From contig VOPR01000015.1 in the NCBI GenBank assembly GCA_009594995.1, positions 1 to 64,000 on the forward strand: a stretch of DNA of 64,000 bases, written 5' to 3'. The position numbers were made by a program, and so were the translations under genes. This DNA is from Nitrospira sp. Lineage in GTDB: Bacteria; Nitrospirota; Nitrospiria; Nitrospirales; Nitrospiraceae. The notes under the pieces were generated by a model that did no database searches, had not been told where the DNA came from, and saw nothing but the letters and a program-made list of their open reading frames with translations. Position 1 is the first letter of the stretch. Every line of letters begins with the position of its first letter. Positions 34,020 to 49,101 of the stretch are shown piece after piece.

Positions 34020-34223
34020 ATGCAGCTCCTCAAGATCGGTCGATTCCATATTAACCTCGACTATATTCAGTTCATCCACGAAGAGCGCGAAGATTTGATT
34101 GTGCATTTCAGTGAAGGCTCGAATATCCGGAGCACGAGTGTTCCACGTACCTCCCCCGACGGAGAGGCTCTACAGCGATTTATGGTCGCTCACCTTTGGG
34201 TGGACCCCTCGCCGGTTCCCTAG
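34020..34223 (+). CDS. Small protein of unknown function
   Basis: 67 residues beginning MQLLKIGRFHINLDYIQF, continuing IHEEREDLIVHFSEGS and ending with an Asp/Pro-rich tail. The N-terminal 40 residues look like a compact beta hairpin module like those of short LytTR-like or single-sheet proteins. AAGGA lies five bases before the ATG. It converges with the DCC-family gene, with seven bases between them. No function can be assigned. Confidence 0.5.
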   Translation: MQLLKIGRFHINLDYIQFIHEEREDLIVHFSEGSNIRSTSVPRTSPDGEALQRFMVAHLWVDPSPVP

Positions 34224-34230
34224 CAGCCCG

Positions 34231-34647
34231 CTATGTGGTCGGATGTGTCGTGTTGGCGGTGGATTTGGTGCGGCACATTCCGGAGCAGCTGGGCTTGCGA
34301 CCGGTGAGCCACAGGCGGTTTCTCGCAAACCAGACATAGGCTCTCACCAGGAGCGGATCGATCGCGGGCAACCGGCTCAGCTTGGCCAAAAATCCCAAGC
34401 CGACGGCTTGCCAGATCGTGCGAAACACCTCCACGCCTGTGATCACAATCCCATCTTCCCGTCTGGCATGAATTACTGCGCCCAGCTCATCTACTGAAAG
34501 TCCGGCCTCGGCGGCATCATATTCGGGTGACGAAAAGTCGCAGAGGAGGAGACGGTGTTTTCGGTCGAACCGCTGCATGAGCGCCATCTCGCGGGCGCAA
34601 ATGGGGCAGGCTCCGTCGTAAAACACCGTGAGCGGATAGATCGCCAT
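34231..34647 (-). CDS. DCC-family thiol-disulfide oxidoreductase (DUF393)
   Basis: 138 residues. The family motif YDGACPICAREMALM, with the thioredoxin-like CxxC at its core, lies at the N-terminus, followed by AVIHARREDGIVITGVEVFRTIW. The C-terminal tail adds CSGMC, a second possible metal or redox site. The gene starts 18 bases after the stop of the carH-like gene, so they share a transcript and presumably the light-dependent control. Substrate unknown. Confidence 0.82.
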   Translation of the reverse strand: MAIYPLTVFYDGACPICAREMALMQRFDRKHRLLLCDFSSPEYDAAEAGLSVDELGAVIHARREDGIVITGVEVFRTIWQAVGLGFLAKLSRLPAIDPLLVRAYVWFARNRLWLTGRKPSCSGMCRTKSTANTTHPTT

Positions 34648-34665
34648 GTGAAGGATGTCCCTTCG

Positions 34666-35583
34666 TCAGCCTGGAATGGGAAACCGTCGGGTGAACTGTT
34701 CCAACATTTCGTCCAAGTCGCCGAATGTTTCCAGGAGTTCAATGGGGGATTCTGCGAAGTGCTGCCGCATGGCCTCCGCTCCGCGGCCGCCGGCCAGAAC
34801 TTTGGACACAGGCGCCACGTCTCGAATCAGTGCCTGAATCAAGTCGGTCGCAAGCGGGTTGGGAAGGGCAATTGTAATGGAAAGAATAGTCAGGTCGGGC
34901 GCGACTTCGCGGCAGAGTTTGCTCAGCGAAAGAACGGGTACATTGGCGCCGAGGTAGTAGACCCGGCAACCACGCACGCGACATCGATAGGCCACGGCCA
35001 GTGCTGCAAGGTCATGTTCCTCGCCGGGCGGGCACGCTACGACAACTGTCGCGCCGAATTCGGCCACAGGCAGCTGGTTCATGGCCGCATAGAGTTTTTG
35101 TTTGATTTGGCCGGTCACGTAATGTTCGACCGCGATATCAATGCGGCCGCTATGCCACAGATGCCCCACTCGTTCCTGAAGCGGAAGCAGGATTCCGTGC
35201 AGGGCTTCTTCAAATGGCACGACAGCTACGGCGCCGTTCAATCGTTTCTCGAACATCACACGGTCGAGTGGTTCCAGCGCCGACAATAATTCTCGCAACA
35301 GCCGGTCGAAGGTATTGTCCACGACGGTGGTGCGTGGTGCGGCCGCTCGCAGTCGATTGATCAGTTCTTCCCGCCCCACTCGAGCCAGATCACCGATCGA
35401 TTCTCCTGCATCCAGTTGCTGCTTCAGATACCGCAACAACGCAACATCTTCGTCCGAATAATTGCGATATCGATTCGCCCCGCGGGTGGGTTTAAGCAGG
35501 TCAAATCTTCGTTCCCAGACCCGGATAACATCGCGGCTGAGGCCGGTAAGTTTCGCAACCCTATGAATTCTGTGGGTATTCAT
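34666..35583 (-). CDS. CarH/LitR-like B12-dependent photoreceptor repressor (MerR family)
   Basis: 305 residues. Residues 1-~70 are a MerR winged helix (RVAKLTGLSRDVIRVWERRF). Residues ~93-165 form the four-helix B12 cap with Trp143, nine residues, then Glu153-His154, the W9xEH light-sensing signature of CarH. The cobalamin Rossmann domain follows, with His190 in GEEHDLAAL as the likely lower axial ligand (the usual ExHxxG ends in Ala). In characterised CarH, adenosylcobalamin makes a DNA-bound tetramer in the dark that light dissociates. Its own promoter contains a matching operator copy, so autoregulation is expected. The predicted mRNA leader is only ~6 bases and lacks a Shine-Dalgarno site. 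Confidence 0.85.
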   Translation of the reverse strand: MNTHRIHRVAKLTGLSRDVIRVWERRFDLLKPTRGANRYRNYSDEDVALLRYLKQQLDAGESIGDLARVGREELINRLRAAAPRTTVVDNTFDRLLRELLSALEPLDRVMFEKRLNGAVAVVPFEEALHGILLPLQERVGHLWHSGRIDIAVEHYVTGQIKQKLYAAMNQLPVAEFGATVVVACPPGEEHDLAALAVAYRCRVRGCRVYYLGANVPVLSLSKLCREVAPDLTILSITIALPNPLATDLIQALIRDVAPVSKVLAGGRGAEAMRQHFAESPIELLETFGDLDEMLEQFTRRFPIPG

Positions 35584-35595
35584 TTGCTAGTAGGA

Positions 35596-35624
35596 AGTAT
35601 AATTCTGTGTCCAATGTTTGTCAA
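35596..35624 (-). promoter_or_regulatory. Promoter of the carH-like gene
   Basis: On the minus strand: -35 TTGACA (35624-35619), 17-base spacer holding one operator copy, -10 TATACT (35601-35596). The -10 lies 12 bases before the ATG, giving a nearly leaderless transcript. Confidence 0.75.
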
Positions 35625-35703
35625 ATATTTATGCATAAAACTCTTGACACATTGGACATAAAGGTTTAAACATTAGACATAGTCGTTGCAAACATTGGAC
35701 ATA
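35608..35703. repeat. Four-copy operator array between carH-like gene and its divergent block
   Basis: The core CATTGGACA occurs inverted at 35608-35616 and direct at 35650-35658 and 35693-35701; a variant CATTAGACA is at 35671-35679. The direct copies are spaced 21 and 22 bases, about two helical turns, and their cores all extend to ATA. One copy lies in the spacer of each promoter. MerR-type CarH repressors bind such multi-copy direct repeats as tetramers, so these are probably its operators. Confidence 0.75.
35644..35672 (+). promoter_or_regulatory. Promoter of the putative light-regulated block
   Basis: -35 TTGACA (35644-35649), 17-base spacer beginning with the operator core CATTGGACA, and a weak -10 TAAACA (35667-35672). 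It drives the genes starting at 35721. Confidence 0.6.
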
Positions 35704-35720
35704 AAAATCCAGGAGTGATC

Positions 35721-36017
35721 ATGGCGACAACGAATGCAATGCAAGAGACAGCAGGAAGCAGCGAGGGCCGAGTGGAGCTTCTGGCCTTCCAGCATGAATC
35801 CGATTGCACCCGCTGCGGCGGATTGATGGTTCAGGATTTCTGTACGGATCTCCTCACCGGCAAAGGTGGACTCGATTGTCCCACCAGACGCTGTGTCCAA
35901 TGCGGGGACATTGTCGATCCTGTCATTCGCTGGAATCGACACCTCCAGCAGATGGCCGGCGCAGCCCGGGAGATGAAAGTGGCCGGCCAAGCGTTGAACG
36001 GTCAGGTCTCAGCGTAG
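35721..36017 (+). CDS. Small zinc-ribbon-like protein
   Basis: 98 residues. Four cysteines in two pairs (CTRCGG near residue 30 and CVQCGD near residue 65) with a CPTRRC lead-in suggest a zinc ribbon. The flanks are polar, with no signal peptide. AGGAG lies six bases before ATG 35721. First gene after the operator array, hence probably most directly controlled. The gene at 39847 encodes a relative with the same CxxC spacing and an IVDPVI/VLDPVI stretch. Function unknown. Confidence 0.65.
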   Translation: MATTNAMQETAGSSEGRVELLAFQHESDCTRCGGLMVQDFCTDLLTGKGGLDCPTRRCVQCGDIVDPVIRWNRHLQQMAGAAREMKVAGQALNGQVSA

Positions 36018-36066
36018 CAGTTGTCGTCACCAATGATTTGAGAGTTCGTAACCAAGGAGGTTTCAC

Positions 36067-37029
36067 ATGCGGAGTCAGATGGCCCTTCGGATTGGAATAG
36101 GAATGGTGCTCGTGGCGGGGGCGACATCGTTAGCCATTGCGGCCGATGCCTCTGGAGATAATAAGGACATGGTGCTCATCTCCAAAGGCGAGTTCACCAT
36201 GGGCAGTAACGAACATTCGGACGAGGTCAGGCATCAAGTGGTGCTCGATGCCTATCTGATCGACAAGTTCGAAGCCTCCAATGCGCGGTACAAGGAGTTC
36301 ATGAAAGCTACGGGCCACCCGGCTCCCGCCTATTGGGACGATCCGCGACTCAGCAAGCCGGAGCAACCGGTGGTCGGAGTCAGTTGGACGGACGCCAATG
36401 CGTTCTGCAAGTGGGACGGCAAGCGGCTCCCGACCGAGGCGGAATGGGAAAAGGCAGCCAAAGGGCCTGAAGGCGACAACCACTATCCGTGGGGACACCA
36501 TCTGGATCCAAAGAAAGCCAACTACGGACAGAATGTGGGGCGCACGATGCCGGTCGATTCCTATCCTGATGGTGTGAGCGGGTATGGAGTCTACAACATG
36601 GCCGGAAACGTCTTCGAGTGGGTTGACGACTGGTATGACCCGAAGTACTACCGGACCAGTAACGCGCTGAACCCACGTGGTGCCGACAAGGGCTACAACT
36701 TCGCCAACCAAGGCCCGGTGAAGGTTTTGCGAGGTGGCTCATGGCTGGCTCCGGAAACGTCCCTGCACACCAGCCATCGATTCTGGAATCAACCGGAGAA
36801 TAATTCTTACGGCGTCGGTCTGGGTTTCCGTTGCGCCAAGTCGGCCAATGCGGTCTCGGAAGAAGCCACCCAGGCCGGACGGGATGCGTTCATCCAGGCG
36901 TTGGTCGGGATGGGTGCGGAGAAGAACGCAGATGCCATGGCCTCCATCGAGAAGGCGTTGGCCGCTGATCCTGACAACAAAGAGTATTTGGCGACCCGTG
37001 AGCTCATTAAGAAAAGCATGAAGAAATAG
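36067..37029 (+). CDS. Exported SUMF1/FGE-fold protein 1
   Basis: 320 residues. The signal peptide covers residues 1-25 (cleavage after SLAIAA). The SUMF1 domain spans ~32-265: GEFTMGSNEHSDEVRHQV, RLPTEAEWEKAA, YGVYNMAGNVFEWVDDWYDP and VGLGFRCAKS. The paired cysteines of true formylglycine-generating enzymes are absent from the RGGSW region, so oxidase activity is unlikely. About 50 C-terminal residues form a TPR-like helical pair (ALAADPDNKEYLATREL). Periplasmic. It shares domain order with the next gene, a tandem duplicate. Confidence 0.82.
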   Translation: MRSQMALRIGIGMVLVAGATSLAIAADASGDNKDMVLISKGEFTMGSNEHSDEVRHQVVLDAYLIDKFEASNARYKEFMKATGHPAPAYWDDPRLSKPEQPVVGVSWTDANAFCKWDGKRLPTEAEWEKAAKGPEGDNHYPWGHHLDPKKANYGQNVGRTMPVDSYPDGVSGYGVYNMAGNVFEWVDDWYDPKYYRTSNALNPRGADKGYNFANQGPVKVLRGGSWLAPETSLHTSHRFWNQPENNSYGVGLGFRCAKSANAVSEEATQAGRDAFIQALVGMGAEKNADAMASIEKALAADPDNKEYLATRELIKKSMKK

Positions 37030-37095
37030 TTGCCGACTGCGAAGGAGGCGGGTCGACCGCCTCCTTGTCGGACCCTCACGTGAAGGAGGTGCGGC

Positions 37096-38154
37096 ATGAA
37101 TCTGTTGGGTACGGTGATCGGCACAGGGCTTGTCATGGGGATCGTCATCATGGCCCCGGTAGCCCACGCGGATGAATCCACGATTCCGAAAGACATGGTG
37201 TATGTGGGGCAAGGACCGTCGGTGATGGGCCTGGATAGGGTCGAGCCGGCCACACCGAACCGTCGCCTGTCGCTGTACGACCGGCGAATGAAGACGCCCT
37301 GGTCCGCAGAGGCGTTCAACGACGAAGGTCCGGCGCATACGGTGTTTCTCGACTCGTACCTGATCGACAAGTATGAGGTCTCCAATAAAGACTACGGCGA
37401 TTTTGTCAAAGCGACCGGCCATCCGGCTCCGGCCTATTGGGATGACCCTCGCTTGAATAAACCGCAGCAACCGGTGGTCGGCGTCAACTGGATCGACGCG
37501 AAGACCTACTGCGAGTATCGCGGGAAGCGGTTGCCCACGGAGGCGGAGTGGGAGAAGGCAGCCCGTGGACCGCATGGCAATCTCTATCCGTGGGGCAACG
37601 ACTTCGACTCGAGCAAAGCGAACTACGATCGACATCATGACGCGACGATGCCGATAGATGCCCATCCGGAAGGCGCTAGTTACTACGGCGTCTACAACAT
37701 GGCCGGCAACGTGTTTGAGTGGGTGGCGGACTGGTATGACCCGAAGTACTACGGCAGGCTGGAAACGATGGTGAATCCCACTGGCCCGGAGAAACCCCTC
37801 TGGCTCGGCGGCACCGGGACGTACGTGGACCGGCTGACGGTCGGTGAAAAGCGCGTGATTCGCGGGGGGTCCTGGATCGCACCGGAGGGAACCATCCGCT
37901 CGACGCACCGCTTCTGGAACCACCCGCTCAATAACAGTTATGGCGTGGGACTGGGGTTCCGATGCGCCAAGGCGGCGCCTGCTGATTGGGAGCAACGCAT
38001 TCGGGACAGCTACATCACTGCCCTGGTGGAAATGGGCCGGGAACGATTCGCAGAGGCGCAACAGGCGGTCACCCGCGGCTTGGCGATGGACCCGGTCAAT
38101 GTTGAATTGTTGGAACTGCGGCCTCTCATCGAACAATCGATGAAGCGGCCGTGA
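37096..38154 (+). CDS. Exported SUMF1/FGE-fold protein 2
   Basis: 352 residues, paralogue of the preceding gene with an inserted segment near residues 48-75 (RRLSLYDRRMKTPWSAEAF). Signal peptide ~1-26. The core shows AYWDDPRLNKPQQPVVGVNW, RLPTEAEWEKAARGP, GVYNMAGNVFEWVADWYDP and VIRGGSWIAPEG, again without the catalytic cysteine pair. The C-terminus is TPR-like (RGLAMDPVNVELLEL). AAGGAGGTGCGGC precedes the ATG. Sits 66 bases after SUMF1 protein 1. Confidence 0.82.
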   Translation: MNLLGTVIGTGLVMGIVIMAPVAHADESTIPKDMVYVGQGPSVMGLDRVEPATPNRRLSLYDRRMKTPWSAEAFNDEGPAHTVFLDSYLIDKYEVSNKDYGDFVKATGHPAPAYWDDPRLNKPQQPVVGVNWIDAKTYCEYRGKRLPTEAEWEKAARGPHGNLYPWGNDFDSSKANYDRHHDATMPIDAHPEGASYYGVYNMAGNVFEWVADWYDPKYYGRLETMVNPTGPEKPLWLGGTGTYVDRLTVGEKRVIRGGSWIAPEGTIRSTHRFWNHPLNNSYGVGLGFRCAKAAPADWEQRIRDSYITALVEMGRERFAEAQQAVTRGLAMDPVNVELLELRPLIEQSMKRP

Positions 38155-38207
38155 TGCTGGACGGCGGCTGGTGTCGCTCCCAGGGGCTCCATGACGGAGG
38201 TAGAGGC

Positions 38208-38576
38208 ATGAAGTACTGGACAATGATTACCGTGGCAAGCGGATTGACGGCGTTGCTGTCTACGACGGAGCTTCAGGCCGGACCCATCGATGCCAGCCGT
38301 CACACTCATCCGGAGAAAGTGCAGTTGGTGCATGAGGCGGAACATAGCGTGGACCATGCCTGGGAGGTGTATCACCGCGCAGCGCTGGGGGGGACCGTCG
38401 CGTCGCCTGATCTGCAAGCACAAATTGAACAACATCTGCATGAAGCAAGAACCCTCGTGACCCAGGCGCAGGAGGCAGCCGACCGTGGAGACGCTGGCGC
38501 TGTGGAGCGCCTCGTCGGACAGATCAAGGTCCATACGGCCCAGGCCATCGCGGGGAGCAAGGAGCAGAAGCAATGA
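38208..38576 (+). CDS. Exported helical protein of unknown function
   Basis: 122 residues with a signal peptide (~1-24, cleavage after LQAG). The mature part is almost wholly helical and His/Gln/Ala-rich (VQLVHEAEHSVDHAWEVYH, QAQIEQHLHEARTLVTQAQ). Several histidines recur with helical spacing, which could suit metal or heme binding; this is speculative. GGAGG lies eight bases before ATG 38208. Its stop overlaps the start of SUMF1 protein 3 by four bases (ATGA). Confidence 0.6.
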   Translation: MKYWTMITVASGLTALLSTTELQAGPIDASRHTHPEKVQLVHEAEHSVDHAWEVYHRAALGGTVASPDLQAQIEQHLHEARTLVTQAQEAADRGDAGAVERLVGQIKVHTAQAIAGSKEQKQ

Positions 38577-39436
38577 GACAAGGTCTGACCAGGAGAACTA
38601 CTCAGTGGGGTTGCACGGGCCTGTTGGTGGCGGCCGTCTATGCGCTCGCCACGACTCCTGTGCTCGCGGCGCCGGCTTCAAAAGAGCTGGATCCGGTTCC
38701 CATGGTCACCATTCCGGCAGGACCATTCTTGATGGGCACTCAAAGTCCGAAAGGGCGAGCCGATGAATGGCCGCAGCGTTCAGTGCAGGTTGACGCCTTC
38801 GCCATCGATCAGGTGGAGGTGACCAATGAACGGTACATGACGTTCGTGACGACGTCAGGGCATCGAAGCCCGCCCAATCCTTACGGGACCGGGGTGTTGA
38901 TTTCAGCCAAGGGAATCGAACAGCTTCCGGTCGTACAGGTCACGTGGTACGACGCTAAAGCCTACTGCGCGTGGGCCAAAAAGCGGTTGCCGACCGAGGC
39001 CGAGTGGGAGAAGGCCGCGCGTGGGACCGACGGCCGCACATTCCCGTGGGGCAACGATGCTCCGACCCCGGCGCGGGCGAATTTTGACCGGGAATGGGTC
39101 GACGATAAGACCCTCCATGCGGTGGGCTCGTTGTCCGGTGGCGACTCGCCATACGGCATCAAAGACATGGCAGGCAATGCCCGTGAGTGGGTGCAGGACT
39201 GGTATGACCCGGACTACTACGCCAATGCTCCGACGACCAATCCGCAGGGACCGGATAAGGGCATCGTCCGCGTCATTCGAGGAGGATCCTGGCACAGCCC
39301 TCTCTCGGATATCACGGCAACGGCCCGGGGCCGCGGGGGTTTCGCGCTCCAGACACACGGGACCGGGTTCCGATGTGTGCGGAGTATCGATGGACAGGGG
39401 CAGGATGCGGCCCATGGTGAGCCGAAGGCGAAGTAG
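38573..39436 (+). CDS. Exported SUMF1/FGE-fold protein 3
   Basis: 287 residues. Signal peptide ~1-33. The SUMF1 domain fills the rest: MVTIPAGPFLMGTQSPKG, FAIDQVEVTNERYMTFV, RLPTEAEWEKAARGTDG, IKDMAGNAREWVQDWYDP, RGGSWHSP and GTGFRCVRS. It lacks the TPR tail of proteins 1 and 2 and the FGE catalytic cysteines. Translationally coupled to the gene before it. A relative of NirV-like SUMF1 proteins that accompany redox enzymes, but no partner enzyme is visible here. Confidence 0.82.
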   Translation: MRQGLTRRTTQWGCTGLLVAAVYALATTPVLAAPASKELDPVPMVTIPAGPFLMGTQSPKGRADEWPQRSVQVDAFAIDQVEVTNERYMTFVTTSGHRSPPNPYGTGVLISAKGIEQLPVVQVTWYDAKAYCAWAKKRLPTEAEWEKAARGTDGRTFPWGNDAPTPARANFDREWVDDKTLHAVGSLSGGDSPYGIKDMAGNAREWVQDWYDPDYYANAPTTNPQGPDKGIVRVIRGGSWHSPLSDITATARGRGGFALQTHGTGFRCVRSIDGQGQDAAHGEPKAK

Positions 39437-39525
39437 ACGATGGCCTCAGCTGGTGGGGTGACGTTGTGGGCTGGTGAGCTGGCAATGGAGGTACCGCGAC
39501 TCCGCACGCGGCCTCCCGTTGAGGA

Positions 39526-39556
39526 GGATGGGTTCTTCCTTTGGAGGAACCCGTCC
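39526..39556 (+). promoter_or_regulatory. RNA hairpin in the middle of the block
   Basis: GGATGGGTTCTTC (39526-39538) pairs with GAGGAACCCGTCC (39544-39556) with two G-T wobbles around a 5-base loop, in the 188-base gap after SUMF1 protein 3. No T tract. It may stabilise or partly end the upstream transcript. Confidence 0.45.
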
Positions 39557-39624
39557 CCTCAGCGAACCAACAGACTGGACGAAGAGAAGGCCTTTGTATC
39601 AGGCGCGGTAGTCGGGAGGAGTGT

Positions 39625-39756
39625 ATGACTCAGTTATTGGTCTATGGCGTGGTGATTCTGGTGGCCAGTATCGGGGCGGCGGTGTTTGTGCGTCAGCGGC
39701 GGCCCGCCTATGCGGTGGCGCGGCGGGAGAGGCAGGAACGGCTGCGTGGCTGGTAA
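39625..39756 (+). CDS. 43-residue single-helix membrane peptide
   Basis: Begins MTQLLVYGVVILVASIGAAV, a single membrane helix, followed by a strongly basic tail (RQRRPAYAVARRERQERLRGW). GGGAGGAGTGT precedes the ATG. Too short to assign; such peptides often tune membrane complexes. Confidence 0.5.
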   Translation: MTQLLVYGVVILVASIGAAVFVRQRRPAYAVARRERQERLRGW

Positions 39757-39846
39757 CGATTGCGAGAGTGTGAGCCGTGTTGCAGTAGAGGCGAGCAAGC
39801 AGGATGAGGTGCACAGTCGCTCATTTTTTCGAAGCCGGGGGTTCCA

Positions 39847-40200
39847 ATGGAAACACATGGGACGCCAGAATCTTTCTCTACTCCGCAGCCGGAGCACCAC
39901 GTGTGTCCTCGTTGCGGCGGGTTATTATTGACGCAATATTACATTGATCTACTCGATGATACCGGCCAGATCGATATCACCGCCTGGCATTGTACGATGT
40001 GTGGGGAGGTGCTCGATCCGGTCATCCTCAAGAATCGGAAGAGTCCGCCGCCGAATTTGCTGTATGGTACGAAGGAGCGAAAGTTCAGTCAGCGCGTGAC
40101 GGCCATTTCGAGTCGGAGCGCTTCGAAGAAGTCGGCGAATCACAAAGAGTCGTCAGCACGGGGGGAAGAATCAGCGAATGGGTCCGGCCGTGAACCGTGA
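39847..40200 (+). CDS. Zinc-ribbon-like protein, relative of the gene at 35721
   Basis: 117 residues. Two cysteine pairs, CPRCGG (~20) and CTMCGE (~50), mirror the spacing in the first protein of the block, and both continue with a DPVI stretch. The C-terminal ~45 residues are Ser/Lys-rich and disordered. The stop overlaps a possible GTG start of the epimerase. Function unknown. Confidence 0.6.
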   Translation: METHGTPESFSTPQPEHHVCPRCGGLLLTQYYIDLLDDTGQIDITAWHCTMCGEVLDPVILKNRKSPPPNLLYGTKERKFSQRVTAISSRSASKKSANHKESSARGEESANGSGREP

Positions 40201-40232
40201 GCGACGACCAGTGTGAGGGGGAGGACAGGACA

Positions 40233-41150
40233 ATGAAGATCGTGGTGACCGGAGGAACAGGATTTATCGGTCATGTGCTGGTCGCCGAATTGGCGCGGCA
40301 GGGACACGATGTGGTCGTCCTGAGCCGCAAGTCCGGTCATCCGTCTCACTCGCCCATACGATGCGTGGAATGGGATGCCCGTTCACCGGGGCACTGGCAG
40401 GCGGAGGTTGCCGCTGCTGATGTAGTGATCAATCTCGCCGGCGAGCCGATCGCGGAAGGTCGATGGACGGATGCGCGCAAGCGCCTCTTGCTTGACAGCC
40501 GTGTACTCAGCACCAGACTTCTGGTGGATGCGATTGCTGCGCGTCCTGTTCCGCTTCAGCTCCTGATCAGCGCCTCCGGCATCGGGTACTACGGTGCGAG
40601 TGACGATCGGCTGCTGGATGAGCGATCGCCGCTTGGAGAAGGGTTTCTTGCTCAACTGTCCGCAGCCTGGGAGGCGGAGGCCCTGCGCGCGGGTCAGTTC
40701 GGCACCCGTGTTGTCTTGCTGCGGACCGGGATGGTGCTGGAACAGGATGGCGGGGCCTTGCCGAAAATGATGCTGCCGTTTCATTTTTTTGCCGGGGGAC
40801 CGGTCCTGCCCGGCACGCAATGGGTGTCGTGGATTCACCGCACTGATCTCATCGGACTCATTCAATGGGCCCTCACCACACCGGATCTCTCAGGGCCGGT
40901 GAATGCTGTGGCGCCCGAGGCGGTGACGATGAAACAGTTCTGTAGCACCCTAGGCCAAGTGCTCCATCGTCCCTCGTGGATTCCCGTGCCGGGACTTGCC
41001 TTACGCCTCGCGCTGGGAGAGCTGGGGACGTTGATGACGACCGGTCAGCGTGTCGGCCCCAGCAAGGCCCGAGCCGGGGGGTACACGTTTCGTTACCCTG
41101 AACTGGAGCCGGCTTTGCGGGCGATTGTCGCCAAGGAGAAACCTGTATGA
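40233..41150 (+). CDS. TIGR01777-family NAD-dependent epimerase
   Basis: 305 residues. MKIVVTGGTGFIGHVL is the Rossmann glycine motif, followed by VVINLAGEPIAEGRWT and SASGIGYYGASDD (the YxxxK-like active site of the SDR superfamily is modified as in this family), ending RYPELEPALRAIV. Members (YfcH, YfhF) are cytosolic oxidoreductase-like proteins of unknown substrate. ATG 40233 was chosen because it starts the Rossmann fold exactly. A GTG at 40197 overlapping the previous stop is possible. The stop overlaps the next gene by four bases. Confidence 0.85.
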   Translation: MKIVVTGGTGFIGHVLVAELARQGHDVVVLSRKSGHPSHSPIRCVEWDARSPGHWQAEVAAADVVINLAGEPIAEGRWTDARKRLLLDSRVLSTRLLVDAIAARPVPLQLLISASGIGYYGASDDRLLDERSPLGEGFLAQLSAAWEAEALRAGQFGTRVVLLRTGMVLEQDGGALPKMMLPFHFFAGGPVLPGTQWVSWIHRTDLIGLIQWALTTPDLSGPVNAVAPEAVTMKQFCSTLGQVLHRPSWIPVPGLALRLALGELGTLMTTGQRVGPSKARAGGYTFRYPELEPALRAIVAKEKPV

Positions 41151-41629
41151 GTGTCCTCCTGGAATCGACGATGCAGTATTTGCACGCACTCGCCGTAGCC
41201 GTGCTCGTCGGCAAGGTTGTCCTGTTGTCATTCGTGGTGGCTCCGATTCTGGCAAAGCATTTGGCGCCGGAACAGTTCGGGACTGTTGTGCGTCGATTGT
41301 TTCCTGCCTACTATTTTTTGGGTATGAACGCGGCACTGGTCGGCCTGGTGTCGTTGACCGTTCTCGGGATCATGCACGGGGTGAGTTCTTCTCTGGTGCT
41401 GGCCGGCGGAATCTGGCTGGTCATTCTTTCTGCAGAGTCCTATTGCCGATCCCCCCTGACTCCGCAGAGCAATGCCATGAGGGATCAACTGAAAGTGCAG
41501 GAGCGCGAGGGCGTCGTCGATCCGGTCTTGAAAGCGGCATGGGATCGATTGCATCAACGGTCGCTGTATTTGAACTCACTCGTGCTCTTGGGAGGGCTCT
41601 GGCTGGTGGGCCTTGCGTATCATTGGTGA
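41147..41629 (+). CDS. DUF4149-type membrane protein
   Basis: 160 residues with four hydrophobic segments: ~8-33, ~53-75, ~80-97 and ~140-158. The family pattern includes LVGKVVLLSFVVAPILAKHL and the conserved ESYCRSPLT and LHQRSLYLN loops. Function unknown; in related genomes it neighbours TIGR01777 epimerases and photolyase. Overlaps the epimerase gene by four bases. Confidence 0.75.
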   Translation: MSVLLESTMQYLHALAVAVLVGKVVLLSFVVAPILAKHLAPEQFGTVVRRLFPAYYFLGMNAALVGLVSLTVLGIMHGVSSSLVLAGGIWLVILSAESYCRSPLTPQSNAMRDQLKVQEREGVVDPVLKAAWDRLHQRSLYLNSLVLLGGLWLVGLAYHW

Positions 41630-41651
41630 TCGTCACGAAGGGAGAGCAAAG

Positions 41652-42131
41652 ATGAACAAGCACATGTATACCGGTCTCTACGCAGTCATGGGGATTCTGA
41701 GCCTCTGCCTGAGTCAATCGCCCGGCACAATGGGCAAGGCCTTGGCCGGTGAGGGGCAGGAGAAGGCTGGAGCGGGAGCGTCCTATGGGCTGGAGGTCGC
41801 GATTCCGGATGGCGTCATCGGAGTCGCGTTGCACGTCGGCGCTGAACGAGTGGGCGAGACGGCCGTGTTGTATATCGCACAGATCTTGCCCGACGGTCCG
41901 GCGGAAAAAGCCGGGCTCAAGCAAGGGGATGAATTGACGACGGTCGATGGTGTCGCGGTGACCGGTAAGACGTATGAGCAAGTGGCGTTAATGGTCAGAG
42001 GCGAGCCGGGAACGGTGGTCAAGTTGGGGGTAAAAACGGAGAACGCCGTGCGGGACGTGTCCGTGACACGGGTGGCAGGCCAGACCCTCTATAAGGGGCA
42101 AATGGGATCACATGGCGGCTCAGCCAAATAG
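41652..42131 (+). CDS. Exported single-PDZ-domain protein
   Basis: 159 residues. The N-terminus carries a hydrophobic export signal (~5-33). The PDZ domain spans ~50-140: ILPDGPAEKAGLKQGDELTTV, then GKTYEQVALMVRGEPGTVVKL. There is no protease domain, so it probably acts as an adaptor or periplasmic peptide-binding module. GGGAG before the ATG. Between a membrane protein and an exported protein, so the middle of the block is largely envelope-directed. Confidence 0.78.
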   Translation: MNKHMYTGLYAVMGILSLCLSQSPGTMGKALAGEGQEKAGAGASYGLEVAIPDGVIGVALHVGAERVGETAVLYIAQILPDGPAEKAGLKQGDELTTVDGVAVTGKTYEQVALMVRGEPGTVVKLGVKTENAVRDVSVTRVAGQTLYKGQMGSHGGSAK

Positions 42132-42138
42132 GTGATGC

Positions 42139-42663
42139 GTGAAACAGGCCATTGTCGCGCTTGGGTTGATGGTCATCGCAGCAGGCACTCCAACGACCGA
42201 GGGGCAGGCTCATCCCACGCCGCTCTCCATATCATCCGCCGTGGAGAAAACGGGACTGTATCTGTTGGCGGGCGACTATCGCCGGGCCTTAGAGGCGTGT
42301 GAGCAGGGTATACAAGAGGCACCGTCGGCAGAGGCATACCTGCGTCTCACGTATGTCTATCAGGCGATCGACGCGTACCTTGAACAGTTGTCTAAGGATG
42401 AGAGCTGGATGGCCGTGGAGCAGCTGTATTTGAATCTTGCGTACCGGCATACTGAGGATCTCGTCGATCCCCCGGGCGGTCTGGCGCGGATGGCAAAGGA
42501 AATGATTCAGACCAGCGTTCGCCAACAGTCCGACGTCAGCGCTGCAATGGCCGTGCGGTTGAATAAGGCGGCCTCCGATCGGCTCTGGCAGGAACAGACT
42601 CAGTGGCGGTCGGCGCATCCCACGACCTGGTGGCAGGCGTTTCCCGATGCCTGGGTGCGCTAA
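42139..42663 (+). CDS. Exported TPR-like protein of unknown function
   Basis: 174 residues from a GTG start with AGGTGA just upstream. Residues 1-~24 look like a signal peptide. The body is helical with a TPR-like pair (GDYRRALEACEQGIQEAPS), then an aromatic-rich C-terminus (PTTWWQAFPDAWV). It starts seven bases after the PDZ gene. No family recognised. Confidence 0.55.
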   Translation: MKQAIVALGLMVIAAGTPTTEGQAHPTPLSISSAVEKTGLYLLAGDYRRALEACEQGIQEAPSAEAYLRLTYVYQAIDAYLEQLSKDESWMAVEQLYLNLAYRHTEDLVDPPGGLARMAKEMIQTSVRQQSDVSAAMAVRLNKAASDRLWQEQTQWRSAHPTTWWQAFPDAWVR

Positions 42664-42713
42664 TGGAGAAGGGACGTCACGGCACGATGTCCGCAGGGAA
42701 GGAGACCGGGAAT

Positions 42714-43145
42714 ATGATCCAGCAAACCACTCAACGCGGCACCGATATCAAATTATTCGGCGCACTCTTCCTGCTGGTGGGATTGATCGATGTGCTCATC
42801 ATCGAATTCTTCCCCGCCTATGCACTGAAGCTGTTCGGTGTGACGATTGCCGGTCCGATGGCCTACGTGGTGAAGCTGCATTCGCCAGCCGTGCATTTTC
42901 TGATCGGGTATGGATTTATATTTCTCCGTCCCTGGTCCTGGGGGTTGGCCATGGCCTATGGGGGCTTCGGCCTGACGAGCGAGCTGATGAATCAAGTTCA
43001 GTTCGGTTTCCATCAGCTGCGCACGGGATTTATGGTCTCGACGGCGCTGTTTCTCTGCTATGTGGCCTGGCGGAGAATTCTGTTTGTTGATCCGGTTCCG
43101 CCTGCGACCAGACTGGCTTCGTCATCTCCCGAGGTCCGCTTATGA
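42714..43145 (+). CDS. Integral membrane protein of unknown function
   Basis: 143 residues from ATG 42714 (GGAG nine bases upstream); earlier starts at 42663 and 42687 are possible. Four hydrophobic stretches: LFGALFLLVGLIDVLIIEFF, a second around VKLHSPAVHFLIGYGFIFL, a third WGLAMAYGGFGL and a fourth MVSTALFLCYVAW. The stop overlaps the photolyase start by four bases (ATGA), so their translation is coupled. Function unknown. Confidence 0.55.
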   Translation: MIQQTTQRGTDIKLFGALFLLVGLIDVLIIEFFPAYALKLFGVTIAGPMAYVVKLHSPAVHFLIGYGFIFLRPWSWGLAMAYGGFGLTSELMNQVQFGFHQLRTGFMVSTALFLCYVAWRRILFVDPVPPATRLASSSPEVRL

Positions 43146-44581
43146 AGGGCCTGGTCTGGTTTCGTCGTGATCTGAGACTTCATGATAACCCTGCTCTGAC
43201 GGCGGCCTGCACAGAGTGCCGGGAGATCGTACCGCTCTTTGTGTTCGACGAACCGTTGCTGCGTCAGCATGTCTTCGGGTCTGCTTGCGTCGGGTTCATG
43301 TTGGGATGTCTGGAAGAATTGCGCCGCTCACTGGCGGAACAGGGAGTGGCCCTGGTTTGGCGACGCGGCGAGCCCATTGAAACAGTGCTGCGCACGGCAC
43401 AGGATCTTGGCGTCGATGCCATCTATTGGAATCGAGACTACGAGCCTTCGGCCGTGGAGCGGGATCGCAAGGTTCAGCATGGGCTGGCACGCCAAGGCCG
43501 TACGGTTAAGACGTTCAAGGATCATGTGGTGTTTGAAGCCGAAGAAGTTCGCGGGCTGACGGGAGACCCCTTTCAACGATACAGTGCGTACCGCGACCGC
43601 TGGTGGACTACCTGGCGCTCTGCCGCTCCGCCGGTGCTTCCGGTGCCCTCATGTCCCTCGCCTTCCACGCCTGTTGATGCGCCGGCCTTGCCGACGGCGA
43701 CGGATTTAGGGTACGAGTCAGTACCGATGTGGATTGAACCGGGTGAGCAGGCCGCGCGCGCTCGGCTCAAATGGTTCTTGAAAGGGCCGGTGCATAGCTA
43801 TGTCAGCGGTAGAAATCTTCCGGCGCAAGATGCGACCTCCAAATTGTCTCCCCATTTGCGTTTCGGAACGATCTCTACGCGCACGATGGTGCATGCGGCT
43901 CTGAACACCCTGTCCAAGGGTGGCCACGTTTCCCGTCCGGATGTGTTCACCTGGATGGATGAATTGGTCTGGCGGGAATTTTTTCAGCAGGTTCTGACGG
44001 CGTTTCCGCACGTCGCCGAGGGCCCGTTCAAGACCAAGCCGGGACTGCCGGCTCCGCGCGCTGCCGGGCCTGAGCGTGACCGGTTGTTTGCCGCTTGGTG
44101 CGAGGGCCGGACCGGCTATCCGATCGTGGATGCAGGGATGCGCCAGTTGAACCAGACTGGTTGGATGCACAATCGGGTGCGCATGGTGGTCGCCTCTTTT
44201 CTGGTGAAAGATCTTCGAATCGACTGGCAGAGCGGAGAACGATACTTCATGCAGCAGCTCGTAGACGGAGACCTGGCGGCCAACAATGGCAACTGGCAGT
44301 GGTGCGCCTCCACAGGAACGGATGCGATGCAGGGCTACAGAATCTTCAACCCGACCCTGCAAAGCGAAAAGTTCGATCCTGAGGGTGACTACCTGCGGCG
44401 CTATGTGCCGGAATTGAGTCGCGTGCAGACGAAGTGGATCCATGAGCCGCAGCTCATGCCGCAGGAGGAACAGGTTCGTGCCCGATGCCGCATCGGATCA
44501 GACTATCCGGAACCGATTGTGGACCATCGGCAAGCCCGTCAGGAATATTTGGACCTCGGCAAGCAACAGGTGGCGACATGA
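43142..44581 (+). CDS. phr: Deoxyribodipyrimidine photo-lyase
   Basis: 479 residues, class I cryptochrome/photolyase family. The N-terminal antenna domain begins LVWFRRDLRLHDNPAL. The FAD domain contains SPHLRFGTIS, WMDELVWREFFQQVL, GYPIVDAGMRQLNQTGWMHNR and NNGNWQWCASTGTDA, with the tryptophans for electron transfer in place. It uses blue light to split cyclobutane pyrimidine dimers. Placement in a block controlled by a light-sensing CarH-like repressor is consistent with light-induced repair. Overlaps both neighbours by four bases. Confidence 0.95.
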   Translation: MKGLVWFRRDLRLHDNPALTAACTECREIVPLFVFDEPLLRQHVFGSACVGFMLGCLEELRRSLAEQGVALVWRRGEPIETVLRTAQDLGVDAIYWNRDYEPSAVERDRKVQHGLARQGRTVKTFKDHVVFEAEEVRGLTGDPFQRYSAYRDRWWTTWRSAAPPVLPVPSCPSPSTPVDAPALPTATDLGYESVPMWIEPGEQAARARLKWFLKGPVHSYVSGRNLPAQDATSKLSPHLRFGTISTRTMVHAALNTLSKGGHVSRPDVFTWMDELVWREFFQQVLTAFPHVAEGPFKTKPGLPAPRAAGPERDRLFAAWCEGRTGYPIVDAGMRQLNQTGWMHNRVRMVVASFLVKDLRIDWQSGERYFMQQLVDGDLAANNGNWQWCASTGTDAMQGYRIFNPTLQSEKFDPEGDYLRRYVPELSRVQTKWIHEPQLMPQEEQVRARCRIGSDYPEPIVDHRQARQEYLDLGKQQVAT

Positions 44582-45531
44582 CGACCGCGGCGCTTCGACT
44601 CGGCATCAGCCGTTGTTTGCTTGGTGAAGAAGTCCGTTTCGATGGGGGCCACAAGCGCGACGTGTTCCTGACCGATGTATTGGGCCGGTATGTCGAGTGG
44701 GTGCCGGTCTGTCCGGAAGTCGAGGCCGGACTCGGTACGCCACGGGAAGCGATGCGGCTGGTCGGCAATCCGCAGCACCCACGCTTAGTGGCGATCAAAA
44801 GCGGCCAGGATCATACGCGCGCCTTGGAAGTCATGACGGCGAGGCGCCTGGACGATTTGGAAAGCGTGGACTTGTCCGGCTTTGTGTTCAAAAAGGATTC
44901 GCCCAGTTGTGGAGTGGAACGGGTTCGTACCTACAACGAGCACGGCATGCCGGGTCGCAAGGGCGTAGGCCTGTTCGCGCGGGCCTTTCTCGGGCGTTTC
45001 CCGCTGATCCCCGTCGAAGAAGAAGGCCGGCTGTGCGATCCGTTGCTGCGAGAGAATTTTATCGAGCGGGTGTTCTGTTATCGCCGTTGGCAGGATCTTG
45101 TGAGCAGCGGACTGACTCGGCAGGCGGTGGTCCGCTTTCATACCGTACACAAGTATTTGCTCCTGGCGCACAGTGCGCCGCATTATCGACAACTCGGTCG
45201 CCTGGTGGCGCAGGTCAATGAGTATCGCCCCAGAGATCTGGCGCAGCGGTATGGCGAACTCTTTATGCAGGCGCTGGCGGTGCGGGCGACCGTTCGCAAG
45301 CATGTGAACGTGCTTCAGCACATCCTTGGCCATTTCAAAGAGAAGCTCGATGCGCAGGAAAAAGCGGAGTTGTTGGGAGTCATCGGGGACTACCACCAGG
45401 GACTCACGCCCTTGATCGTGCCTTTGACGCTGATCAAGCACTATGTGCAGGTCTTCGATGTCGGATATATTCGCGAGCAGGTCTATTTGAATCCACATCC
45501 GAAGGAGCTCATGCTCCGGAATCACGTATAG
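44578..45531 (+). CDS. TudS/RudS-type desulfidase (DUF523-DUF1722)
   Basis: 317 residues. The DUF523 part (1-~150) has three conserved cysteines, Cys13 (ISRCLLG), Cys45 (PVCPE) and Cys111 (DSPSCG), the ligand set of the [4Fe-4S] cluster of TudS thiouracil desulfidases. DUF1722 (~185-305) follows (VRFHTVHKYLLLAHS). This fusion has been reported to remove sulfur from 4-thiouridine in tRNA (RudS). s4U is a near-UV photosensor in bacterial tRNA, and E. coli ybgA (DUF1722) neighbours phr, so co-location with photolyase is meaningful. Start codon overlaps the photolyase stop by four bases. Confidence 0.85.
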   Translation: MTTAALRLGISRCLLGEEVRFDGGHKRDVFLTDVLGRYVEWVPVCPEVEAGLGTPREAMRLVGNPQHPRLVAIKSGQDHTRALEVMTARRLDDLESVDLSGFVFKKDSPSCGVERVRTYNEHGMPGRKGVGLFARAFLGRFPLIPVEEEGRLCDPLLRENFIERVFCYRRWQDLVSSGLTRQAVVRFHTVHKYLLLAHSAPHYRQLGRLVAQVNEYRPRDLAQRYGELFMQALAVRATVRKHVNVLQHILGHFKEKLDAQEKAELLGVIGDYHQGLTPLIVPLTLIKHYVQVFDVGYIREQVYLNPHPKELMLRNHV

Positions 45532-45541
45532 AAAGGACGCC

Positions 45542-45910
45542 ATGCCGCATGTTGTCGTGGAAGGGGCCGGAGACCTTCAAGGCCTCTATCAATCCTTTGC
45601 CCCGATCCTTCAGCGCGCGGGAGGCGAGATTCTCAAGGTGCAGGAGTTCTATCTGGCCAAGAGTGGCAGAGAGGCGCTGCTGGATGCGGTGGTGATCGAG
45701 CAGGGAGTGTCACGGAGTTTCTTTATCCAGCTCAAACAACATGACACGACCGTCACCGTGCGGCTCCTGCCCGCGACGGATCCCGAGAAAACTCCAGCGG
45801 TGAAAAAAGCGATGGCGCTGGTGGCGGGATTTATCCGAAGGGTCTGTCCGGCGAGTCGGTACGGCAAGACCAATCTGCAGGAATATCTGGATGCAAGCAG
45901 TCCGGTGTGA
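45542..45910 (+). CDS. Conserved-looking protein of unknown function
   Basis: 122 residues. A compact mixed fold: PHVVVEGAGDLQGLYQSF, ILKVQEFYLAKSGREALLDAVV, then TVTVRLLPATDP and a helix KKAMALVAGFIRRVCP. AAGGA lies before the ATG, 10 bases after the desulfidase stop. No signal peptide. No family assigned. Confidence 0.55.
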   Translation: MPHVVVEGAGDLQGLYQSFAPILQRAGGEILKVQEFYLAKSGREALLDAVVIEQGVSRSFFIQLKQHDTTVTVRLLPATDPEKTPAVKKAMALVAGFIRRVCPASRYGKTNLQEYLDASSPV

Positions 45911-45949
45911 GCGTCAGTGAATGTGACTTTCAATGGGAGGAGTGTAGAG

Positions 45950-46459
45950 ATGGCAACAGTGCGGAAGGGTGTGATTCTGGTGGGACACGGCGGCATTCCC
46001 AGGGGCTGCCCTCAGGATATGGTGACGAAATTGAAACGGCTCGAGGCGCAGCGGCGCGCGGCGAAGCAACCGGCGTCGGCGGAAGAGATGGAATTGGATG
46101 CCAAGATCCGCCAATGGCCACGCAATGCGGAGACGGATCCCTATCAGGCAGGGCTTGAAGCGGTGGCAGCCCAATTGCGCGCGAACCTCGGAGAGGTACT
46201 GTTTGCCGTGGCCTACAACGAGTTTTGCGCTCCGACGTTGGAAGAATCCGTCGAGCAACTCGCCAAGCAGGGCGCGACCCACATTACCGTCGCGACGACG
46301 ATGTTTACGCCCGGCGGGTCGCATTCGGAAGTGGAAATTCCCGAAATACTCGAACATCTCCGGCCGCAATACCCCGGGGTCGAGTTGCGGTATGCCTGGC
46401 CGTTTGACCTCGGCCTCGTTGCGGGGACGCTGGCGGAACAGGTCCGGCGATTCTCCTAA
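45950..46459 (+). CDS. CbiX-type sirohydrochlorin chelatase-like protein
   Basis: 169 residues, single-domain CbiX/SirB-like. The catalytic histidine region ILVGHGGIPRGCP lies at the N-terminus; GGSHSEVEIPEIL is the second metal-binding region and AYNEFCAPTLEE the middle motif. Relatives insert Co2+ or Fe2+ into sirohydrochlorin on the way to cobalamin or siroheme. An atypical charged insert (~25-55) separates the first motifs. Being at the end of a block governed by a B12-dependent repressor is suggestive of a link to cofactor supply, but that is inference. GGGAGG precedes the ATG. Confidence 0.75.
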   Translation: MATVRKGVILVGHGGIPRGCPQDMVTKLKRLEAQRRAAKQPASAEEMELDAKIRQWPRNAETDPYQAGLEAVAAQLRANLGEVLFAVAYNEFCAPTLEESVEQLAKQGATHITVATTMFTPGGSHSEVEIPEILEHLRPQYPGVELRYAWPFDLGLVAGTLAEQVRRFS

Positions 46460-46601
46460 AGGGTTTTCGAGTCGCTGCCGACTCCTGTGAGCAGGAGTAA
46501 CTTGTGGAATGCAGGCGATGAGTCTCTCGCCGGAGTGAATCATCGATTTCATCTGCAGTGCGACCGGTGTAAAATCAGCCGCCGTTAGGGAGGAGCCAGC
46601 A

Positions 46602-47228
46602 ATGCCGTGGTGGCTTGCTGAGCCTCGTATCCAAGGGAGCACCGGACCGATCATGCTGCAAGACCAACTCATCGCCGCATTTCACAAGACGCAGTCGTTC
46701 AAATGGGATCCGAAAGGCGGGTTCAAGCTCGCCTCGGGACTACTTAGTCCGTTTTATGTCGATTGTCGGACGTTGATGGCGTTTCCCCACGCGCGCCATC
46801 TCGTCGCCAAGCGAGCCTGGGAGGTCATCAAGGATTTTCAGGTCGATTGTCTCGGAGGGCTTGAGATCGGGGCGATCTCGATCGCCACATCCATATCAGA
46901 CTATGCCTACTCGGCGTCTCCTCGCCGCGAGTGGCGCACATTTTTTGTGCGTAAACAAGCGAAGGACCATGGGCTCGGTCGTTTGGTCGAAGGGGTCGTG
47001 CAGGCGGGAGATCGGGCCTTAATCGTCGATGATGTGCTGACCAGCGGCGGATCGGTGGTCAAAGCGATTGTCGCGGCCCGTGACGCCGGGTTGGAGGTCA
47101 AAGACGTGCTGGTCATCGTCGATCGAAAAGAGCAGGACGGCCGCGCTCGAGTCGAACAGACCGGAGTGAACGTCGTGAGCCTGTTGACCATCGATGACCT
47201 GATGCAGGGGCAGGCCGCTCCTTCCTAG
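46602..47228 (+). CDS. pyrE: Orotate phosphoribosyltransferase
   Basis: 208 residues. The PRPP-binding motif ALIVDDVLTSGGSVVKAI is complete, with LLSPFYVDCRTLMAF and GLEIGAISIATSI upstream. It makes orotidine-5'-phosphate in pyrimidine synthesis. GGGAGGAGCCAGCA before ATG 46602 favours this start over the internal ATG at 46653. It lies 142 bases past the CbiX-like gene, past two small hairpins, so it may have its own promoter. Confidence 0.92.
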   Translation: MPWWLAEPRIQGSTGPIMLQDQLIAAFHKTQSFKWDPKGGFKLASGLLSPFYVDCRTLMAFPHARHLVAKRAWEVIKDFQVDCLGGLEIGAISIATSISDYAYSASPRREWRTFFVRKQAKDHGLGRLVEGVVQAGDRALIVDDVLTSGGSVVKAIVAARDAGLEVKDVLVIVDRKEQDGRARVEQTGVNVVSLLTIDDLMQGQAAPS

Positions 47229-47230
47229 GC

Positions 47231-47542
47231 TCACTTGCACTGAAATTGAATCCCCCACCGTCGCTCCTCTACCACGTCGCTCGATCCGGCAATGGGGCTG
47301 GCCTGGCGGAGCCGGCCCTTGGTTTCTCCTTCTCGGACCGTGGTGTATCCTCCCGGGCATTTCTTTTCCATGAGGTGCATGGCTTCCTTCCGGAACGACG
47401 AGAGCAAGGTCCCCTGTTCGGGTCGATACGGGTATACGACTACCCCACCATCCTCGGCATCTTTGACCATGATGGCTCCTTCTCCGCAGCCTGCGAGAGT
47501 CAGGAACAGACCAAGAATCGTCAGACTTGACCAACTTTTCAT
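47231..47542 (-). CDS. Small putative lipoprotein
   Basis: 103 residues. Lipobox LAGC near residue 18 after a hydrophobic signal (LTILGLFLTLAGC). The mature protein is short, with a CPGGYTTVREG stretch and a final QFQCK, so one disulfide is possible. GGAGCTCT precedes ATG 47542. It converges on pyrE, leaving two bases between the stops. Function unknown. Confidence 0.65.
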   Translation of the reverse strand: MKSWSSLTILGLFLTLAGCGEGAIMVKDAEDGGVVVYPYRPEQGTLLSSFRKEAMHLMEKKCPGGYTTVREGETKGRLRQASPIAGSSDVVEERRWGIQFQCK

Positions 47543-47605
47543 AGAGCTCCTATCATGTGTCATGCGTCACGTACCCATTCCGGCCTGAGCAAAGGAGCAG
47601 TGACC

Positions 47606-48031
47606 ATGCGATATCTCACTTCTATCATGTGCGCGATCGTGCTGTGCGGGCTTGTGCTCGAGGGGCCTCATTCCGCCGTCGCCTACCATTCCTATGTGTT
47701 GAGCGTACAGCAATTGCGAGCCGGGCTGGTCAAGGTTCCGTCGATGAGTGCGAAAGGTTTTGTCCTGGTCGATGTGCGTTCCCCCGAAGAGCACGCATCC
47801 GGGATGATTCCCGGCACCGATCTGAATATCGACTTTCGTGACATGAAGGCCCGGCATCGGGAAATGGGCGCGAAGTTGGACGACCATATCGTCGTCTACT
47901 GCCAATCGGGCCATCGCAGCAACATCGCCGCAGAGACATTGGCCGACCTGGGCTATACGCACGTCTACAATGTGGTGGGAAGTATGAATGCCTGGACCGA
48001 GGCGGGGTTCCCTGTCGCGCCGGGCCGCTAG
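47606..48031 (+). CDS. Exported rhodanese-domain protein
   Basis: 141 residues. Signal peptide ~1-26 (AHSAVAY). A single rhodanese domain with FVLVDVRSPEEHASGMIPGT and the active-site loop VVYCQSGHRSNIAAE. A periplasmic sulfurtransferase or redox protein; donor and acceptor are unknown. AAGGAG precedes the ATG. Confidence 0.85.
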   Translation: MRYLTSIMCAIVLCGLVLEGPHSAVAYHSYVLSVQQLRAGLVKVPSMSAKGFVLVDVRSPEEHASGMIPGTDLNIDFRDMKARHREMGAKLDDHIVVYCQSGHRSNIAAETLADLGYTHVYNVVGSMNAWTEAGFPVAPGR

Positions 48032-48042
48032 ATCCGCGACAG

Positions 48043-48936
48043 TCATCGCCCGCGTGGCGGCAATGATGGGCCCGGAGCCGGCGTTCCGCGCGAAGGGGTG
48101 CGCGGACTGATGCCGATGACCGTGGGCAGCGGAATGTGCACACCCATGTTGCCTGCCAGGATCGATCGCCATGTGGCTTGTGAGGTGGTTTCCTGGGCGG
48201 CGTGCAGCAGGTCCGGGCTGGCGATGACATCGGACGACGCGCCTCCATCCATGGCCATGGCTTGCTGAAGCGATGGCAGCTGCCGATGTAAACAATCGGC
48301 AAGGTGATGAAGCGAGACGACATCGACCGTTTTGATCACGAGAATGGCGCCCTGCCCGTCCTCTGCCACCACCGTCTGAAACGCGCGTTTCCCACTATCC
48401 CGCACCCGGAGCTTGCCGGTTCGGTCGAATAACATCAGCGACTGTGCGGCTTCCCGGTAGAGCGGAGAATCTTCCGCGAATCCATCGTAGGCGAGATCGA
48501 GGACGCGTGCTTTCCGAAGTTTTCCGTCTGTCGGTTCCGCCGCGAAGAGTCCCTGCCAGGAATGATGTCTCTTGCCGCCGAGCGAACGCCCCTCTTTTAG
48601 CAAGACGCCCAGATAAGAATAGTCCTCCCGAAACAGCCCCGCGTTAAACAGCACATAGGCATCAGTGCGCTGCTGCCAGTCGTGAATCGAGAGCGGTGCC
48701 CGAAGTCCTTCGTCCCGAAACTGATAGATGGAAAACCGGAATCGCTCCGGATCGACCTGCAGCATGAGGAGGGCCGGCACCTGAGGGCAGGCTTCAACGG
48801 GATTCCAGAGCGCCACCTGCATGCCTGCGGTGAGGCGTTCCCAGGGGACCGGTTCGGATGAAGCTGTACCTGCTCCTAATCCCGCTTGGAGACAGAGTAA
48901 CAGAAGGCAGCCGCACAAGATCGTCAACCGGTGCAT
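48043..48936 (-). CDS. Phosphodiester glycosidase (NAGPA-like, DUF2233) family protein
   Basis: 297 residues. Signal peptide ~1-23. The domain pattern is visible in YVLFNAGLFREDYSYLGVLL, AFQTVVAEDGQGAILVIKT and LQQAMAMDGGASSDVI, the last being the conserved DGG(A/G)S active-site region of this family. Family members hydrolyse N-acetylglucosamine-1-phosphodiester bonds; in bacteria the target may be an envelope polymer. The C-terminus is Pro/Arg-rich. AGGAAG precedes ATG 48936. Convergent with the rhodanese gene. Confidence 0.78.
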   Translation of the reverse strand: MHRLTILCGCLLLLCLQAGLGAGTASSEPVPWERLTAGMQVALWNPVEACPQVPALLMLQVDPERFRFSIYQFRDEGLRAPLSIHDWQQRTDAYVLFNAGLFREDYSYLGVLLKEGRSLGGKRHHSWQGLFAAEPTDGKLRKARVLDLAYDGFAEDSPLYREAAQSLMLFDRTGKLRVRDSGKRAFQTVVAEDGQGAILVIKTVDVVSLHHLADCLHRQLPSLQQAMAMDGGASSDVIASPDLLHAAQETTSQATWRSILAGNMGVHIPLPTVIGISPRTPSRGTPAPGPSLPPRGR

Positions 48937-49101
48937 GGTGCGTGCTTCCTGCGGGCTGTGGTCGATCATCGTGACACTCGGGCGTTCATACTATTGGAAG
49001 ACAGGCAATCGCACTATGAAGTGCTTCTTCCGAGCCCAGTATAAAAAGGATGGCTGTGGGGGTCAAATTCGTTGCGGGTATTGGCCGGCGAACAAATCGT
49101 G

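Follow-up and report, generated by a model that had tools for sequence, protein, structure and literature searches.

The carH Locus and Its Neighboring Genes

We analyzed a 64,000-nucleotide stretch of DNA from Nitrospira sp. (contig VOPR01000015.1), here called the window, in which a gene for a CarH-like regulator is separated by a repeat array from a divergently oriented block of genes. The genes at the locus were located as follows:

34231 to 34647, minus strand: gene for a DCC1-like (DUF393) thiol-disulfide oxidoreductase, located downstream of carH (Pfam DCC1-like, E 4e-26)
34666 to 35583, minus strand: carH, 305 amino acids, MerR-type DNA-binding domain and two B12-binding domains (Pfam, PDB match, fold search)
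35721 to 36017, plus strand: first gene of the block, 98-amino-acid cysteine-pair protein (open reading frame with GGAG before the ATG; position retained in 7 relatives)
36067 to 37029, 37096 to 38154 and 38573 to 39436, plus strand: three SUMF/FGE-sulfatase-like genes
38151 to 38576, plus strand: small gene among the SUMF-like genes
40197 to 44581, plus strand: genes for a TIGR01777 oxidoreductase, DUF4149, PDZ, TPR-like and membrane proteins and a photolyase
43142 to 44581, plus strand: DNA photolyase gene

The DCC1-like gene adjoined carH in 6 of the 7 relatives compared and is probably co-transcribed with it. On the other side of the array, the block order in seven related genomes was 98-amino-acid protein, SUMF-like proteins, TIGR01777, small genes, photolyase and DUF523/DUF1722, with some members missing or unrecognized in some genomes, such as L116 and L117. 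A close photolyase homolog was present in all 11 genomes searched, and was located inside the block in each of the 7 regions read. The arrangement of three SUMF/FGE-sulfatase-like proteins in a row beside the photolyase was retained in Nitrospira. It was also noted that the small cysteine-pair proteins encoded at 35721 to 36017 and 39847 to 40200 appear to be mutually related, and that the latter, used as a query, also matched the place of the first gene in L116 and L117. In most of the relatives compared, the block was followed or flanked at its photolyase end by a gene for a CbiX/CfbA-like chelatase of the sirohydrochlorin type (45917 to 46459 in the window), which makes a link to B12 synthesis possible.

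The Regulator Is a Distant Member of the CarH Family

The preliminary description of this DNA had taken the regulator to be a CarH-like photoreceptor, and its kinship with CarH was corroborated by both sequence and predicted fold. The protein matched the Thermus thermophilus LitR/CarH protein (PDB 3whp/5c8d) with an E value of about 2e-28, and contained the domains of the CarH family in the expected order, MerR_1 followed by B12-binding_2 and B12-binding (Pfam). The TtCarH structures 5c8f, 5c8d and 5c8e were the top Foldseek matches to its AF2 model (pLDDT 87.3), with E values of about 1e-18. The full-length TM-scores against TtCarH were about 0.5 to 0.6; the B12-binding part alone aligned at 2.6 to 3 Å, and the full-length scores are therefore probably due to domains that are positioned differently in the model.

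The cofactor-site residues named in the preliminary description were also borne out. The Wx9EH adenosyl-capping motif (W143-x9-E153-H154) and the lower axial histidine, H190, which aligns with the ppgerH motif of TtCarH (His177), were invariant in 29 aligned homologs. His144, which corresponds to His132 in TtCarH, was retained in nearly all Nitrospira orthologs, with an arginine in L006. The NCBIfam CarH equivalog NF052513 was the best family match, yet the score of 128 bits fell below the cut-off of 400, which counts against reading the repeats as a CarH operator. However, this cut-off fits close equivalogs and does not define the wider CarH family, for which a low score is expected of a distant member. 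The genome of the window also encodes a PduO-type cobalamin adenosyltransferase, and adenosylcobalamin can therefore probably be made from cobalamin.

Genomes of sister genera contained a second CarH copy, and in one case a third, with about 52% identity to the protein in the window. These extra copies share the strand of the first and lie 2 to 12 kb away from it (G077:C14:22403-27290, G082:C15:1737808-1750607 and G094:C53:954-8934), and the two that were read (L167, L168) had related arrays upstream.

Four Exact Repeats Are Clustered Across Two Divergent Promoters

Between carH and the divergent block, CATTRGACA occurred in four exact copies, of which the first lies on the minus strand and the other three lie on the plus strand. 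The features of this region were:

35596 to 35624, minus strand: carH promoter, TTGACA-N17-TATACT, 11/12 match to the consensus
35608 to 35616, minus strand: operator copy 1, CATTGGACA, within the spacer of the carH promoter
35618 to 35628, minus strand: 11-bp repeat with the carH -35 hexamer, ATATTTGACAA, directly upstream of copy 1
35644 to 35672, plus strand: forward promoter, TTGACA-N17-TAAACA, with copy 2 in the spacer
35650 to 35658, plus strand: operator copy 2, CATTGGACA, within the spacer of the forward promoter
35671 to 35679, plus strand: operator copy 3, CATTAGACA, across the -10 and probable start site of the forward promoter
35681 to 35691, plus strand: degenerate 11-bp repeat slot between copies 3 and 4, AGTCGTTGCAA
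35693 to 35701, plus strand: operator copy 4, CATTGGACA, within the leader of the block's first gene

The four-copy array of the preliminary description, with three direct copies at 21 to 22 bp and one inverted copy, was thus confirmed; the start spacings were 42, 21 and 22 bp, close to whole helical turns. In 5000 dinucleotide-preserving shuffles of positions 35584 to 35714 (131 bp), exact CATTRGACA copies averaged 0.006, with a maximum of 1 per shuffle, versus the 4 observed. Across the whole window, the word with at most one mismatch showed no enrichment (16 observed versus 21.5 by chance), so the signal of the array lies in its clustering. The longer word ACATTRGACA occurred 9 times in the 3.78-Mb genome, 4 of them in the array; the other five sites were all isolated, and four were located in long open frames. 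An additional exact copy at 35894 to 35902 was rejected as a fifth operator site, as it falls within the first gene's coding sequence and the 7 relatives scanned lacked a counterpart there.

The carH promoter, with copy 1 in its spacer, ranked first among the four promoter-like matches from a scan of positions 34200 to 50000. The forward promoter, with a -35 hexamer TTGACA at 35644 to 35649 and a weak -10 hexamer TAAACA at 35667 to 35672, was missing from the matches of that scan, and the weak -10 counts against the operator reading; this hexamer reads TATACA in many relatives. One copy had been placed between the -35 and -10 hexamers of each divergent promoter, which holds for both spacers, whereas the forward promoter was weaker than had been stated. 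The distance from the end of the carH -10 to the ATG is 12 bp (35583 to 35601), which would leave a carH mRNA leader of only about 6 nt with no visible ribosome site.

The Array Is Placed on an 11-bp Lattice

The published CarH operator unit is the 11-bp nnnnTnnACAn, and degenerate repeats are tolerated (PMC9304148). All copies in the array contained TnnACA, in direct repeats that overlap -35 or -10 hexamers, and a distance of exactly 11 bp separated the TnnACA of copy 1 from that of the repeat with the carH -35. The carH -35 hexamer is itself part of an 11-bp-phased repeat. Several features argue against a CarH operator. The phasing is incomplete, as 21 bp separate copies 2 and 3 and 9 bp separate the forward -35 hexamer from copy 2, and the second A of an older consensus, nAnnTnnACAn (PMC8156234), is a C in the array. 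Instead of the 3 to 4 contiguous full repeats of TtCarH and BmCarH (myxobacterial CarH sites need fewer), only two were contiguous, on the carH side, while the other three were 21 and 22 bp apart.

We compared the upstream regions of carH orthologs, which were present in many Nitrospira genomes. The operator claim of the preliminary description depended on finding repeats near orthologous genes, and about 50 related upstream regions from Nitrospira and sister genera preserved the array in register, although these regions are related by descent and the site counts are not independent. The 15 regions of the clade of the window had forward TnnACA at offsets 0, 9, 23, 30 and 52 from the -35 hexamer (in two of these regions, the forward sites were shifted outward by one base), and TnnACA on the opposite strand at -25 and -36, 11 bp apart. 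Counted from the forward -35, the slots across the related regions were at 9, 30, 41/42 and 52, and the background outside the slots averaged 0.18 TnnACA per offset. An extra TnnACA at 41 or 42, i.e., in the slot at 35681 to 35691 or 1 bp further, was identified in 15 of the 39 regions outside the clade of the window and in none of the 15 inside. Three repeats in 11-bp tandem were found in L159, L161, L164 and L166; among the sister genera, the tandem was perfect in L166 (TACATTAGACATACATTGAACATACATTAAACA) and also in L159 and L164.

Since the slot that separates the last two direct copies is occupied in sister genera, we assign the array to the CarH 11-bp lattice. The binding unit is predicted to be the known CarH 11-bp direct repeat, here ACATTRGACAT, and the spacing of 21 to 22 bp would reflect a thinned direct-repeat operator with a decayed middle repeat. 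A separate operator design with a 21- to 22-bp period was rejected as the primary reading, as relatives carry a repeat in the slot between copies 3 and 4. A single head-to-tail dimer of TtCarH is reported to occupy the first and third of three tandem 11-bp repeats (PMC9304148), and this 22-bp reach corresponds to the spacing of the array. We suggest, tentatively and as a possibility that we rate below even, that the operator in the clade of the window changed from contiguous 11-bp repeats to an alternate-slot form with its copies facing one side of the helix, and that a CarH oligomer could use this reach of one head-to-tail dimer to bridge both divergent promoters at once.

Additional sites were searched for across the genome, as the preliminary description had proposed for CATTRGACA with the same spacing, and the strict array was found at the carH locus only. 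No second convincing array locus was identified in the genome of the window with the pair pattern at 0 to 3 mismatches, TTGACA plus a site, or tandem patterns; weak single sites may occur elsewhere. Within the genus, the pair pattern was present in 24 of 29 genomes, nearly always at one place.

A Candidate B12-Dependent Light Switch

Taken together, it is probable that the array serves as an operator for the neighboring CarH, which would shut both promoters in the dark as an adenosylcobalamin-bound oligomer and release carH and the photolyase block in the light. In the dark, CarH would bind adenosylcobalamin and assemble into an oligomer, each DNA-binding domain of which would hold one 11-bp repeat (ACATTRGACAT). 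Two adjacent repeats would cover the -35 and spacer on the carH side, and three would cover the spacer, the -10 and start region and the leader on the divergent side, so that both promoters would be shut, in agreement with the multimeric MerR repressor of the preliminary description, which silences itself and the neighboring block. In the light, the Co-C bond of the cofactor would break and the oligomer would fall apart, allowing transcription of the regulator gene and of the block, presumably as one transcript.

Alternatively, CarH could bind the array but sense B12 supply or redox, as a sensor of the adenosylcobalamin level, or bind without B12 like CarA. The family does include a B12-independent CarA (PMC9304148) and a CbiX-like chelatase is encoded at the end of the block (45917 to 46459), but all photosensor-site residues of CarH that were tested are invariant, the conservation of His144 extends to nearly all Nitrospira orthologs, and the block contains a photolyase, which together make this alternative improbable. 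As the binding of CarH to the array is deduced from sequence, the repeats could also belong to another regulator, encoded elsewhere, with CarH acting at other sites. We consider this very unlikely, given that the repeats track both the carH orthologs and the 50% to 55% identical CarH copies tested across genera, that the strict arrays in the genome of the window adjoin carH only, and that the pair occupies one place in most genomes of the genus. Least credible of all is that CarH acts in the manner of classical MerR activators, by twisting a long spacer: a MerR-family protein with a site between the -35 and -10 would suit such a role, but MerR-activated promoters have 19- to 20-bp spacers while both spacers here are 17 bp and already optimal, and the sites are direct repeats rather than a single palindrome.

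A light switch operated by CarH thus remains our preferred reading, and the neighboring block with the photolyase looks like a DNA-repair gene block that is silenced in the dark by a B12 light sensor. We found no description of CarH in Nitrospira in the literature searched, and the locus provides a concrete, testable candidate for a B12 light switch in Nitrospira-type nitrite oxidizers. The related operators, which range from full tandem to thinned, represent a natural experiment on the number of repeats needed per CarH oligomer.

Comparison with Known CarH and LitR Systems

Judged by its sequence features, the Nitrospira array appears to be a well-conserved further example of the known CarH switch with a modest structural twist. 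It resembles the TtCarH/LitR system of T. thermophilus in the MerR and two B12-binding domains, the Wx9EH motif and the axial histidine of the regulator, and in the TnnACA 11-bp direct repeats of the operator, one of which embeds the -35 hexamer. Unlike in TtCarH, the divergent-side repeats are spaced by two slots, with the repeat in the middle being degenerate, and the neighboring block consists of photolyase and SUMF genes rather than carotenoid genes. Myxobacterial CarH operators, such as that of crtI-carH in Sorangium, also place divergent promoters under one operator and mix full and degenerate repeats (PMC9304148), whereas the Nitrospira array has the core ACATTRGACAT, at least 4 full repeats in both orientations and other target genes, and belongs to another phylum. 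The block is also similar to that of the Class II LitR proteins (PplR/PmlR) of Pseudomonas, where a block with photolyase and oxidoreductase genes is light-induced and LitR proteins have the photolyase among their light-induced targets (PMC9758184). However, unlike the Nitrospira CarH, Class II LitR proteins lack a full B12 site and work through a LOV protein, and their binding site is TGTACA-N12-TGTACA (PMC9758184).
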